Translations under genes and position numbers: made by a program
NCBI GenBank assembly: GCA_019115845.1
Contig: DXCU01000095.1
Location: 1 to 41,571 of the forward strand
Source of the DNA: Candidatus Rubneribacter avistercoris
Lineage (GTDB): Bacteria; Actinomycetota; Coriobacteriia; Coriobacteriales; Eggerthellaceae
Direction: 5' to 3'
Length of the DNA: 41,571 bases
The notes under the pieces: generated by a model
Seen by the model: only the letters and a program-made list of their open reading frames with translations
Told to the model about the DNA's origin: nothing
Databases searched by the model: none
In this document: positions 26,083 to 34,962 of the stretch, in pieces
Numbering within the stretch: the stretch's first letter is position 1
Layout of the letters: every line of letters starts with the position of its first letter

Positions 26083-26951
26083 TGGAGCTTCAGTGGCCTC
26101 TGATCTTGTTCACCACGCTCGTGGCGTGGAGCGCGGGGCTCTTTGGAACCCAAGCGTTGCTTGCCGCCGGTGAGCATGCGAAAAAGTCCCAGATGCCGGC
26201 GTGGATTGCGAGTGCCGTGCTGCTGGCTGCCGGTGGGATTGCCGTGTTTTTCCACCTGGAGCACTGGGAGCGCATCTTCAACGGATTTGGGCATTTGACC
26301 TCCGGCATCACCCAGGAGCTGATCGCCATCGTGGTGCTGGCTGTGGTTGCCATCGCCTATCTGGTGCTTATGCGTCGCAGCGACGACGGCACGAGCGTGC
26401 CGAAGTGGCTCTGCTGGGTGTCGGTTGCCGTGTGCGTAGTGTTGGTGGCCGTCATGGCGCACTCCTACACCATGGCCGCCCGCCCCGCGTGGGATTCCGT
26501 GCTTTGGATCCTTTACGTGCTGGGTAACGCGTGTGTGCTAGGACCGTGCACGATGGCGCTTATCATGGCTGTAGTGGGCGATGAGGTGGCTCCCGCCGGC
26601 CTTCCGGTTCTGGTGGGTGCGGCAGTCTCTCTTGTGACGGCTATCGCTTTCGCCGCTTTCCTGCAGGCAAGCGCGGGTTCTTTCACCGAAGTGGGCTACT
26701 ATTTCGACCCGACGCATCCTCTGGCTGGCATGGCTGATGCTGCGGCTCTCGTGTCCGCCCAAGCCCCGCTGCTCTGGGCCGGTGCCGTGGTTGTCGGTGG
26801 CGTGCTCCCGCTGGTGGCAGCCTTCATGGGTAAGAAGTCCGCCAACTGGAAACTCTGGGGTACGGTCGCCGTGGTCTGCGCTCTCATAGGCGCCATCTGC
26901 CTCCGCGTCGTATTCTACGAGTTGGGCCTTTCCGTGTTCATGTTCTACTAG
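26082..26951 (+). CDS. DmsC-type membrane anchor, cassette 1
   Basis: This 289-residue protein has eight clear hydrophobic spans, fitting the DmsC family of quinol-oxidising anchors. It starts in the TAATG overlap with the ferredoxin gene. It is the same length as the cassette 2 anchor and very similar throughout; the first 90 residues differ at only a few positions. However, this copy uses many more A/T-ending codons, so the two have diverged mostly at silent sites. It ends in the shared sequence VVFYELGLSVFMFY. Confidence 0.9.
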   Translation: MELQWPLILFTTLVAWSAGLFGTQALLAAGEHAKKSQMPAWIASAVLLAAGGIAVFFHLEHWERIFNGFGHLTSGITQELIAIVVLAVVAIAYLVLMRRSDDGTSVPKWLCWVSVAVCVVLVAVMAHSYTMAARPAWDSVLWILYVLGNACVLGPCTMALIMAVVGDEVAPAGLPVLVGAAVSLVTAIAFAAFLQASAGSFTEVGYYFDPTHPLAGMADAAALVSAQAPLLWAGAVVVGGVLPLVAAFMGKKSANWKLWGTVAVVCALIGAICLRVVFYELGLSVFMFY

Positions 26952-26999: not shown

Positions 27000-27030
27000 T
27001 GCACCTCCCTCCCAAGCGCCCCGCGCGACA

Positions 27031-27186
27031 GAGCGTGACAGAGGACCGTGACAGAGGACGGGGATAGCGAGCGTGACAGAAGGAGCGTGACAGAAGGACG
27101 GGGATAACGTCACCGAAGGACGGGGATAACGTCACCCTCTGCCATAGCGTGACAGAGGGACGGGGATAACGTCACCCTCTGCCATC
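27031..27186. repeat. GTGAC-type palindromic repeats, cluster 2
   Basis: Units of the form GTGACAGA-GGACGGGGATAACGTCAC occur about five times, complete or partial, some followed by CCTCTGCCAT. They are the reverse-complement form of the units at 260-360 and 29234-29283. Confidence 0.8.
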
Positions 27187-27697: not shown

Positions 27698-28321
27698 ATG
27701 CGAGATGGGAGACGAACAGATACGCGCGATCGTATCTTAGATGCCGCACTCGACCTTATGAGCGGATGCGGGTACGACGGCGTGTCGGTGCGCGACATCG
27801 CAGATGCCGTTGGCATCAAGGGCGCGTCGCTCTACAAGCACTTTGAAGGGAAGCGAGAGGTGTTCGATGCGCTGATCGCTCGTGAAATTGCGGCTCTTGA
27901 GAACACGCTGCGCGAACTCGGCGCAAACGCAACGTTGGACGACAGCCCTGAGGCATATGCCTCAGACGACATGCCGGAGCTGGAGGAACTCGTTTGGCGG
28001 AGTTACCTGCCGTTTTTCTGTGACGAGAGAATACGGAAGCTGCGCCGCATGCTTGAAGTGAGCCGATATGCCGATGAGCGGTGCGCGACCTTGTATAGAA
28101 CGGTCTTCGCAGAGCGTCCTCTTGCCTTGCAGGAACGCATCTTTGGCAGGCTTGTTGAAAAGGGCGCGTTTAATCAGTGCGATGTTGCGCTTGCGGCACG
28201 GCAGTTCCATGGACCCATGCTGATGCTGATGAATCTCGAAACCAAGCCGGACGAGGCGCGAAAGTTCTGCATTCGGCACGTAAGGGCATTCAACGAGCTT
28301 CATAGAGGGGGCACGCTATGA
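27698..28321 (+). CDS. TetR-family transcription regulator
   Basis: This 207-residue protein has an N-terminal TetR HTH (residues 9-55: TRDRILDAALDLMSGCGYDG, then VRDIADAVGIKGASLYKHFE) and a helical ligand-binding domain. ATG 27698 follows GGAGAGGG. Its stop overlaps the start of the flavodoxin-like gene (ATGA), so the two form one operon behind a dyad operator. Base composition is lower in G+C than the flanking respiratory genes, suggesting acquisition. The ligand is unknown. Confidence 0.88.
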   Translation: MRDGRRTDTRDRILDAALDLMSGCGYDGVSVRDIADAVGIKGASLYKHFEGKREVFDALIAREIAALENTLRELGANATLDDSPEAYASDDMPELEELVWRSYLPFFCDERIRKLRRMLEVSRYADERCATLYRTVFAERPLALQERIFGRLVEKGAFNQCDVALAARQFHGPMLMLMNLETKPDEARKFCIRHVRAFNELHRGGTL

Positions 28322-28854
28322 ACGAAGCGGTGGTGTACTGTTCGCAGACCGGGTTCACCGAGAAGTACGCACGGTGGCTTGCCGAGGAATTGGACTGCGT
28401 TGCAACTCCGTTTCGGATGCGTTCGGATGTGGACTTAGACACAACCGATCTGCTTGTTTTTTGCAGCTGGTTTCATGCTGCGTCAATCAAGGGAGCTCGC
28501 TGGCTTAAAAAGGCTATGGAGTCGCACCCGAATCTGTCGGTGATCGTGCTTGCCACCGGCGCAACGCCCATGCCGGGAGCGGGCTGGTCAACCAAGGACA
28601 GCATCAATGAAGCGTTTGCGCGCACGTTTCCGAAAAGCGAATACCCTGATCTGCCATGCTTCTACTGCCACGGCGGATACGATTTCGACAAGCTAGGCGC
28701 AGCGGACAAGCTTGCCATGCGCATGTTCTGCAAAATGCACGACAAGAGCGAAGATCCCAAGGAGAGAGAAACGCTCGCCATCATGCGCAAAGGCTTTGAT
28801 GGCACGAGACGCGAGTATCTTGCACCTCTGCTGGAATACGTGAGGACGCTGTGA
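28318..28854 (+). CDS. Flavodoxin-like protein
   Basis: This 178-residue cytoplasmic protein begins VVYCSQTGFTEKYARWLAEE, the flavodoxin phosphate-binding loop pattern (S/T-x-T-G-x-T). FCSWFHAASIKGARW and VIVLATGATPMP, where flavodoxin-fold proteins bind FMN, follow. It most resembles flavodoxin-domain proteins of the HemG-like/Flavodoxin_5 type. It is coupled to the TetR gene by a four-base overlap and probably expressed in response to that regulator's ligand. Codon use matches the TetR gene, not the flanks. Confidence 0.75.
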   Translation: MNEAVVYCSQTGFTEKYARWLAEELDCVATPFRMRSDVDLDTTDLLVFCSWFHAASIKGARWLKKAMESHPNLSVIVLATGATPMPGAGWSTKDSINEAFARTFPKSEYPDLPCFYCHGGYDFDKLGAADKLAMRMFCKMHDKSEDPKERETLAIMRKGFDGTRREYLAPLLEYVRTL

Positions 28855-28894: not shown

Positions 28895-29018
28895 AAGCAG
28901 GAGGTCCGGCGACTGGAAACTCTGGGGGACGGTCGCCGTGGCCTGCGCCCTCGCAGGCGCGGTCTGCCTCCGCGTGGTCTTCTGCGAGCTGGGACTCAGC
29001 GTGTTCATGTTCTACTAG
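28895..29018 (+). pseudogene. Remnant of a DmsC-type anchor gene, last 40 codons
   Basis: From about 28895 the sequence matches the end of the anchor genes: GRRSGNWRLWG is here RRSGDWKLWG, and the end is EL-GLSVFMFY and a stop at 29018. No start or upstream part is present. A Tyr-to-Cys change in VVFCELG suggests decay. The downstream sequence (CATTCACCCCC...CTCGCATCCGC) matches that after the partial gene at 76, not that after 26951. The TetR-flavodoxin pair lies immediately upstream, so it probably replaced the rest of the gene. Confidence 0.8.
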
Positions 29019-29075: not shown

Positions 29076-29114
29076 GTGCGTGGGAGGGGAGGCGCCCCCT
29101 CGCTTCTTTTCAGG

Positions 29115-29130
29115 CGTTTCGCGTGAAACG
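29115..29130. repeat. Near-consensus parS-like site
   Basis: CGTTTCGCGTGAAACG matches the parS core GTTTCACGTGAAAC at 13 of 14 positions. It lies 81 bases before the perfect site at 29196. Confidence 0.5.
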
Positions 29131-29195
29131 AAACCGCGCAGCACCTCCTCTGCTTCAGGCAAGGCAAGGCGCCGTGGCGGCAACGCCCCCCCGGA

Positions 29196-29211
29196 TGTTT
29201 CACGTGAAACA
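29196..29211. promoter_or_regulatory. parS: Perfect parS-type ParB-binding palindrome
   Basis: TGTTTCACGTGAAACA is a full 16-base match to the established ParB-binding parS consensus, and palindromy extends three bases further on each side. It is intergenic. No parA or parB gene lies in the window, so whether it is part of the chromosome-partition region or an isolated site cannot be told. Confidence 0.75.
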
Positions 29212-29233
29212 TCCTCCCTCTGGGCGCCTGGCG

Positions 29234-29283
29234 GAGCGTGACGTTATCCCCGTCCTGTGTCACGCCCGTCCTGTGTCACGCCG
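29234..29283. repeat. GTGAC-type palindromic repeats, cluster 3
   Basis: One full unit, GAGCGTGACGTTATCCCCGT then CCTGTGTCACG, is followed by a partial unit, CCCGTCCTGTGTCACG. Same orientation and same position after the parS-type site as at 260-360. Confidence 0.75.
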
Positions 29284-29353: not shown

Positions 29354-30289
29354 CTACTCGGCGGCGTCCTCGCGCTTCTTGCGCTTCTCGATGAGCGCTT
29401 TGGCCTCGTCCACGGCCTCGAACAGGCTTGCAAGGCGCGCCTCGTCGCTGGGCTTGAACACGAGGTAGGCGACAAGCTGGGCGTCCTCGCTGTCGATGGG
29501 CACGCAGGCGCGCCGTCCCGTCTCCAGCAGCAAGCCGATCTGCTTCTGGGTCCTTTTCCAGATGAGCACGCTTCCGTCGAGAGGCGTGCTGAAGAACTCC
29601 ACGTCGTTGAGCGACGAGACGGGGCGCGTTTTCGGGGCGAACCCGTGCGCGCGGCACAGCGTCTCGATCTGCGTCCAGGCGGGGTTCGTCTTGTCGCTCA
29701 CGAACTTCACGAGCGTCTCGTTTTTGAGGTCGGCCCAACCGACGCTCCGACGCCGCGCCAGCGCGTGGTCCGATCCGACGATGGCCACAAGCGGAGTGGC
29801 GACGAACGGCCTCAAGGCAAGCCCCCGCTCCTCAACCTGCACGGGGTTCGCGTAGTCCACGAACAGGTCGATCTCCCCGCGTTCCAGCAGGTCGGCCGCA
29901 TCATGTCCGTCGTCGCGGGCGAACGCGAGGGGAGGGCGGTGGGAGCTGCGGGCCAGCATGGCTGTCATCGACATGAGCGTGGCGACGTCGGCGTCCTCGA
30001 ACCGCCCGCCTATCTTGAGGGGGTGCGCGGCTTTCAGCTCGTCGAAGGAACGCTTCATCTTGTCGTACTGGCTCACGATGATGGCGCACGTCTCGAAGCA
30101 CATGCGCCCCTCTTCGGTGAGCTGGATGTTCTTGCGGGTGCGCTCGACAAGCCTCACGCCCAGCTCGCGCTCGAGGGCGGCCAGATGCTTGCTCAGCGCG
30201 GGCTGCGTGATGTTCAGGCTGTTCGCAGCCTCGGTGAAGTTCAGGCATTGCGCCAGCTTGAGGAACTCTCTGCCGTGTTCGATGTTCAT
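29354..30289 (-). CDS. LysR-family transcription regulator
   Basis: This 311-residue protein has the LysR winged helix at its N terminus (FLKLAQCLNFTEAANSLNIT, then QPALSKHLAALERELGVRLVERT). A two-lobed periplasmic-binding-type effector domain follows, from about residue 90. A charged tail, IEKRKKREDAAE, closes it. ATG 30289 follows AAAGGGGC. It diverges from the cassette 2 catalytic gene and is its likely regulator, so this cassette is controlled by a soluble sensor where its two paralogues have membrane LuxR-type ones. Confidence 0.88.
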   Translation of the reverse strand: MNIEHGREFLKLAQCLNFTEAANSLNITQPALSKHLAALERELGVRLVERTRKNIQLTEEGRMCFETCAIIVSQYDKMKRSFDELKAAHPLKIGGRFEDADVATLMSMTAMLARSSHRPPLAFARDDGHDAADLLERGEIDLFVDYANPVQVEERGLALRPFVATPLVAIVGSDHALARRRSVGWADLKNETLVKFVSDKTNPAWTQIETLCRAHGFAPKTRPVSSLNDVEFFSTPLDGSVLIWKRTQKQIGLLLETGRRACVPIDSEDAQLVAYLVFKPSDEARLASLFEAVDEAKALIEKRKKREDAAE

Positions 30290-34085: not shown

Positions 34086-34954
34086 TGGAGCTTCAATGGC
34101 CTTTGATCCTGTTCACCACGCTGGTGGCGTGGAGCGCGGGGCTGTTCGGGACGCAGGCTGTGCTGGCGGCCGGCGGGCGCGCCAAGAAGTCCCAGGTTCC
34201 GGCTTGGATCGCGTCGGCGGTCCTTCTGGCCGCCGGCGGGATCGCGGTGTTCTTCCACCTGGAGCACTGGGAGAGGATCTTCAACGGCTTCGGGCACCTC
34301 ACGAGCGGGATCACCCAGGAGCTCATAGCGATCGTGGTGCTGGCGGTCGTGGCGGTCGCCTACCTGGTGGCGATGCGCAGGAGCGACGACGGCGCCACCG
34401 TCCCGAAGTGGCTCTGCTGGGTCGCGGTCGCCGTGTGCGTGGTCCTCGTCGCGGTCATGGCGCACAGCTACATGATGGCCGCCCGCCCCGCCTGGGACAG
34501 CGTGCTGTGGGTCCTCTACGTGCTGGGCAACGCCTGCGCCCTCGGCCCCTGCGCCATGGCGCTGATCATGGCAGCGGTCGGCGACGAGACGGCGCCCGCC
34601 GGCCTGCCGGCCCTCGTCGGCACGGCGGTCGGAGCCGTGACGGCCGTGGCCTTCGCCGCCTCCCTGCAGGCCAGCGCCGGCGCCTTCGCCGAGGTGGGCT
34701 TCTACTTCGACCCCACCCACCCCACGGCCGGCATGGCGGATGCTGCAAGTGTGGTGGCCGCCCAGGCGCCGCTCCTCTGGGCGGGCGCCGTGGTGATCGG
34801 CGGCCTGGTTCCGCTGGCCGCCGCCTTCATGGGCAGGAGGTCCGGCAACTGGAGGCTCTGGGGCGCCGTGGCCGTGGCATGCGCCCTCGCGGGCGCCATC
34901 GCCCTGCGCGTGGTGTTCTACGAGCTGGGCCTCAGCGTGTTCATGTTCTACTAG
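34085..34954 (+). CDS. DmsC-type membrane anchor, cassette 2
   Basis: This 289-residue, eight-span DmsC-family anchor is the partner of the ferredoxin encoded just before it. The protein is very close to the cassette 1 anchor, and its C terminus equals that of the partial gene at 1-76. Codon use is strongly G/C-ending, unlike the cassette 1 copy. The family takes electrons from menaquinol at the outer membrane face; that role is inferred from family membership. Confidence 0.9.
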   Translation: MELQWPLILFTTLVAWSAGLFGTQAVLAAGGRAKKSQVPAWIASAVLLAAGGIAVFFHLEHWERIFNGFGHLTSGITQELIAIVVLAVVAVAYLVAMRRSDDGATVPKWLCWVAVAVCVVLVAVMAHSYMMAARPAWDSVLWVLYVLGNACALGPCAMALIMAAVGDETAPAGLPALVGTAVGAVTAVAFAASLQASAGAFAEVGFYFDPTHPTAGMADAASVVAAQAPLLWAGAVVIGGLVPLAAAFMGRRSGNWRLWGAVAVACALAGAIALRVVFYELGLSVFMFY

Positions 34955-34962
34955 GCCCCGGC

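Follow-up and report, generated by a model that had tools for sequence, protein, structure and literature searches.

Chromosomal ParABS systems of Bacillus, Caulobacter and Streptomyces combine a 16-bp parS site, a ParB protein with R173 and G201, a cluster of sites at dnaA-parAB and the condensin SMC-ScpAB. Published parS numbers range from one to about 20-23 per chromosome, with the sites near the origin (PMC7333895; PMC10197239), and experiments in two model bacteria, Pseudomonas and Caulobacter, found that extra parS are tolerated only up to ~600 kb from the origin (PMC7333895; PMC5098823). Why the number of parS varies and why the sites cluster at the origin are questions raised in reviews (PMC7333895; PMC5098823). 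Wider distributions are found in related systems: the ParB-family protein Noc of Firmicutes has many NBS sites across the chromosome, with a different sequence and with Q173/R201 in the protein, and P. aeruginosa ParB contacts 7-bp half-parS sites chromosome-wide. A dispersed, fixed motif can also double as a hairpin stem, as in Neisseria, where DNA uptake sequences are placed in terminator hairpins.

Several Eggerthellaceae share the 16-bp site, the R173/G201 ParB, the dnaA-parAB cluster and SMC-ScpAB with the classical chromosomal systems, but carry 20-148 exact parS copies; in the genome mapped below, half of the copies lie beyond the origin domain. ParB contacts are predicted to be chromosome-wide here, as with the P. 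aeruginosa half-sites; by contrast, the sites are full palindromes, in numbers well beyond chance expectation, and half-sites show no enrichment, with GTTTCAC/GTGAAAC heptamers outside full sites being fewer than expected in a 0.8-Mb stretch (26 vs 57). The many-site pattern resembles Noc/NBS, yet a Noc-type second ParB (Q173 K179 K184 R201) is absent from the genome under study, whose sole ParB_N match carries R-A-E-G at the corresponding positions. Unlike the Neisseria uptake sequences, the motif is parS itself, and terminator-like stems surround only a subset of copies. No report of such an expansion, for parS in Coriobacteriia or for this 16-mer, was found in the open-access literature.

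The window, the whole 41,571-nucleotide stretch analyzed here, makes up the whole of C75, one of the 104 contigs in the 3.22-Mb draft genome of a gut bacterium. At 29196-29211 it holds TGTTTCACGTGAAACA, which has no mismatches to the parS consensus, and 81 bases upstream, start to start, lies CGTTTCGCGTGAAACG (29115-29130), with three mismatches; the perfect palindrome and its near-match are thus as the initial annotation had described them, and so is their intergenic position, between a 178-aa plus-strand ORF without an NCBIfam match (28318-28854) and a minus-strand LysR-type regulator gene (29354-30289). A third, degenerate copy, TGCTTCGCGTGAAGCG (224-239; four mismatches), which that annotation lacked, lies inside another copy of the repeat block discussed below. 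The chance expectation for parS matches with up to three mismatches in the 41.6-kb window is 0.05. The perfect site is the center of a 22-bp palindrome, GGA-parS-TCC (GGATGTTTCACGTGAAACATCC; 29193-29214), which can fold as a hairpin on either strand; its added arms are only 3 bp long and no T-run follows, so that features of an intrinsic terminator are missing at this site. Neither a ParB nor a DnaA gene is present in the window, in line with the earlier remark that parAB was not in view; the sole ParB_N match of the genome falls on contig C11 and the sole Bac_DnaA match on C9.

Genome-wide, TGTTTCACGTGAAACA occurs in 104 exact copies, or 117 with up to two mismatches, against none for a reversed control pattern. 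The density of exact sites is highest on the contigs with dnaA and the sole ParB gene (per 100 kb, ~21 on C8, ~54 on C9 and ~70 on C11), and copies continue on the others, the window among them with one exact site in 41.6 kb, or 2.4 per 100 kb. The initial annotation had left a choice between an origin-proximal region and an outlying ParB site. Judged by site density, as the draft assembly gives no direct position for the contig, the latter fits, the value of 2.4 being like that of the scattered background in the complete relative described below, and the former is disfavored. An even spread of many identical palindromes, which was to count against a ParB site, is found in part: the copies are many, but their spread is uneven. 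On C9 and C11 (L048, L050 and L051), parS is present in most origin-near intergenic gaps, and the same gene junctions hold at least one parS in related genera, the exact number varying.

The chromosomal distribution can be followed in a complete relative, G005, a single contig of 3,377,915 bp with dnaA at 2.288 Mb, on which all 108 exact sites are placed. Thirty-eight of them lie within 100 kb of dnaA, and density peaks over the nearest 20 kb to one side, at 65 per 100 kb; most of the remaining chromosome has 1-5 per 100 kb, and a stretch from +0.5 to +0.8 Mb is empty. The fraction of intergenic gaps with parS falls from 80% at less than 10 kb from dnaA to 26% at 10-50 kb, 11% at 50-100 kb and ~2% beyond 300 kb. 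Even so, 55 of the 108 sites fall beyond the 20% of the chromosome taken as the origin domain, and the terminus half holds 37. GC skew, followed in sampled stretches, switches sign near 2.2 Mb and again at 0.3-0.6 Mb, in agreement with the origin and terminus positions. Six exact parS occupy 7.4 kb (C1, 610953-618348) near the point opposite dnaA, the presumed terminus. The region at 2.19-2.39 Mb (L056-L065) includes a short masked N run, in which a feature could be missed. Partial hits from a further four high-copy genomes, mostly single-contig ones, are likewise scattered.

Across 122 Eggerthellaceae genomes, copy numbers fall into two groups, one low, for the most part 0-14, and one of about ten genera that include members with 20-148; among 396 genomes of the phylum, none outside the family exceeds 21. 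Exact counts are 122 in Rubneribacter badeniensis, 109 in Eggerthella sinensis, 107 in Adlercreutzia faecimuris, 63 in Gordonibacter sp. An230, 47 and 39 in the Adlercreutzia sp. strains ZJ176 and ZJ473, 21 in Raoultibacter timonensis, 9 in Paraeggerthella, 2-4 in other Adlercreutzia and 3-5 in Slackia. High-copy species thus stand beside sister species with 2-5 copies. A single ancestral gain is disfavored: the ParB tree, in which many branches are poorly resolved, calls for at least four changes between the high and low copy states.

The window organism belongs to the Eggerthellaceae, its ParB being nearest to that of R. badeniensis (93% identity). Its motif SKGRST...ITAGHARA places R173 and G201, and the four specificity positions read R-A-E-G, in the numbering of PMC7383237, to which residues were assigned by motif and not by structure. 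The CTP-binding GERRW motif and the ParA-binding GLGRGL N-terminus are intact. The earlier reading of the 16-mer as parS is supported by these retained parS-reading residues and by the density peak at dnaA-parAB. A changed ParB in high-copy species is ruled out, the DNA-reading residues being the same in high- and low-copy species, and ScpA is found in three high-copy genomes. A different ParB type occurs in termite-gut type Coriobacteriales MAGs (L035, L036, L038 and L041), which have Q, or in some another residue, at the 173-equivalent position, keep G201 and lack the canonical 16-mer; three of the four have ATTTCACGTGAAAT or TTTTCACGTGAAAA palindromes near parAB. These palindromes are in keeping with the rule of PMC7383237, by which adenine at position 1 is read by Q173, and the Q-type proteins depart from the description of R173, in the same paper, as absolutely conserved in ParB.

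In sampled stretches of the window genome and G005, 154 copies are exact vs 18 with one mismatch, and the flanks resemble each other for no more than a few bases (A at -1, A or G at -2, then mostly G or C), identity between copies being at background (0.26-0.27) beyond 8 bp. In a 0.8-Mb stretch picked blind to the sites, the 16-mer is the commonest 16-bp palindrome, with eight copies vs at most two for any other; together with the chance expectation and the reversed control, this ranking rules out chance palindromes. Coding constraint is ruled out: by a purpose-written codon-usage gene caller, whose calls are approximate, only nine of the 154 copies lie in coding sequence (~94% intergenic), though 55-79% of bases are coding. 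For the whole set, the unrelated flanks likewise rule out an origin as decayed copies of a single long mobile element, an explanation accepted for the block in the window. An exact core in unrelated flanks is not what neutral decay of old repeats would produce; it fits selection for ParB recognition or copying over a very short range. The most plausible reading is that the copies are ParB sites that have multiplied across the genome and are maintained by selection.

The window copy has a history of its own. Both sites are held in an intergenic repeat block (29090-29263, plus strand) that recurs in the genome, with a 93% identical copy on C41 and shorter ones on C98, C36, C91, C72 and at 218-288 of the window, at least seven relatives being recognizable. 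Here copies share sequence well beyond the 16-mer, as the set as a whole does not. Several block copies have imperfect sites, including the near-match, whose counterpart on C41 is TGTTTCACGTGAAACG, with one mismatch; the near-match would thus be the second site of the duplicated block in decayed form, and the many sites with 1-4 mismatches in the block family point to weak constraint there. A GTGACGTTATCCCCGTCCTGTGTCAC-type intergenic repeat (29236-29281) adjoins parS. Repeats with the core GTGACGTTATCCCCGTCCT..TGTCAC, often in tandem, occur at 29236-29281, 250-340 and 27030-27180 of the window and at ~30 other places in the genome; they adjoin parS in places and stand elsewhere without it.

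Upstream of the site lies an orphan C-terminal end of a DmsC/NrfD-like membrane subunit (28897-29018, plus strand; 39 aa, ending in FMFY and a stop). This 39-codon tail is 86% identical to 34833-34954, the end of an intact gene (34103-34954); the DmsC/NrfD label derives from a context of molybdopterin oxidoreductase genes, NCBIfam models giving no match. Similar 3' ends are seen at four places in the window, 28897-29018 (the orphan), 26835-26951, about 34834-34956 and 1-75, which suggests recombination or gene conversion among the ends of DMSO-reductase-type operons. At the orthologous locus, the LysR gene is conserved, with 80% DNA identity in the closest relative, and parS is absent within the 1.5-kb flanks in R. 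badeniensis and Gordonibacter sp. An230. This absence, together with the duplicated block and operon tail, makes it most likely that the window copy is a recent gain: an operon end was duplicated, and the site came with an intergenic block derived from the 3' end of an operon of the DMSO-reductase type. Its restriction to one species suggests turnover of individual outlying copies within a set that is maintained overall.

Taken together with the intact ParB, the sequence data make it probable that ParB genuinely recognizes the 16-mer throughout a greatly expanded parS set, outlying copies included, with a predicted role for ParB and SMC. ParB-CTP clamps would be loaded at every copy and slide over nearby DNA; ParA would move the dense array at the origin, which would act as the centromere, and outlying copies, that of the window among them, would seed smaller ParB patches able to load SMC-ScpAB and to help compact or bridge distant DNA, to the benefit of the cell. 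A stronger proposal, put forward tentatively and at somewhat less than even confidence, is a distributed centromere in several Eggerthellaceae genera, in which ParB, and by way of ParB also SMC-ScpAB, would be loaded at ~100 parS chromosome-wide, terminus included.

The main rival is passive spread, in which parS joined short palindromic intergenic repeats of a REP/MITE-like kind, ~20-30 bp long and frequently paired at a spacing of 34-36 bp, and multiplied along with them, the outlying copies binding ParB with neutral or mildly harmful effect. The block that carries the window copy and its relatives, the lack of conservation of this outlying site in close relatives and the great differences in copy number between related species all accord with it, as do pairs of sites spaced at 34-36 bp that recur in two genera. 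In G005, parS flanks share other common intergenic repeats, and a part of the outlying copies, lying in or beside shared repeats, may have spread by repeat copying; these repeats, however, stand at varying distances from parS. The excess of exact over one-mismatch copies in flanks unrelated beyond 8 bp and the strong peak at dnaA also weigh against passive spread, which is unlikely as a full account but may be the origin of the copies even if selection keeps them.

Many copies form the tips of longer hairpins, which suggests a second or other use. In the window genome, 33 of 54 copies have at least four extra base pairs beyond parS, vs less than 1% in the control, and perfect stems reach up to 12-17 bp past parS in some; RNA folds have z down to -8.8, and at C37:2746 the arrangement GCCTGGGA-parS-TCCCAGGCGTTTTTT is terminator-like, with TTTTTT behind the stem. 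Convergent gene gaps are over-represented among the locations. The palindrome could be the apex of intrinsic terminators, ParB binding away from the origin being incidental. Yet a terminator needs no fixed 16-mer, the gradient toward the origin is left unexplained, and most outlying copies in G005 have 0-4-bp arms and no T-run, several of them between divergent genes; the window copy is likewise short-armed. This explanation is improbable, and still more so is use of the outlying copies by another DNA-binding protein, such as a regulator with a parS-like operator. A single ParB facing more than 100 sites, and their intergenic position, might call for such a protein; against it, the motif agrees with the ParB consensus at every one of its 16 positions, density is greatest around dnaA-parAB, and the genome search for a Noc-type second ParB gave none.

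The spread of sites to the terminus is not predicted by current ideas on where parS is tolerated. Natural genomes with at least 100 perfect sites, terminus included, provide a ready-made test of the tolerance rule, and low-copy sister species (2-5 copies), with nearly the same DNA-reading residues in ParB, provide its natural contrast; genetic tools exist for Eggerthella lenta (PMC9734109). The system can also be used to probe how cells with many loading sites divide ParB and condensin among them, and whether the chromosome arms stay aligned. If the expanded set does act as a distributed centromere, chromosome segregation and folding in these Eggerthellaceae would not depend on one zone at the origin, whereas in Pseudomonas and Caulobacter the zone in which extra parS are tolerated is narrow.
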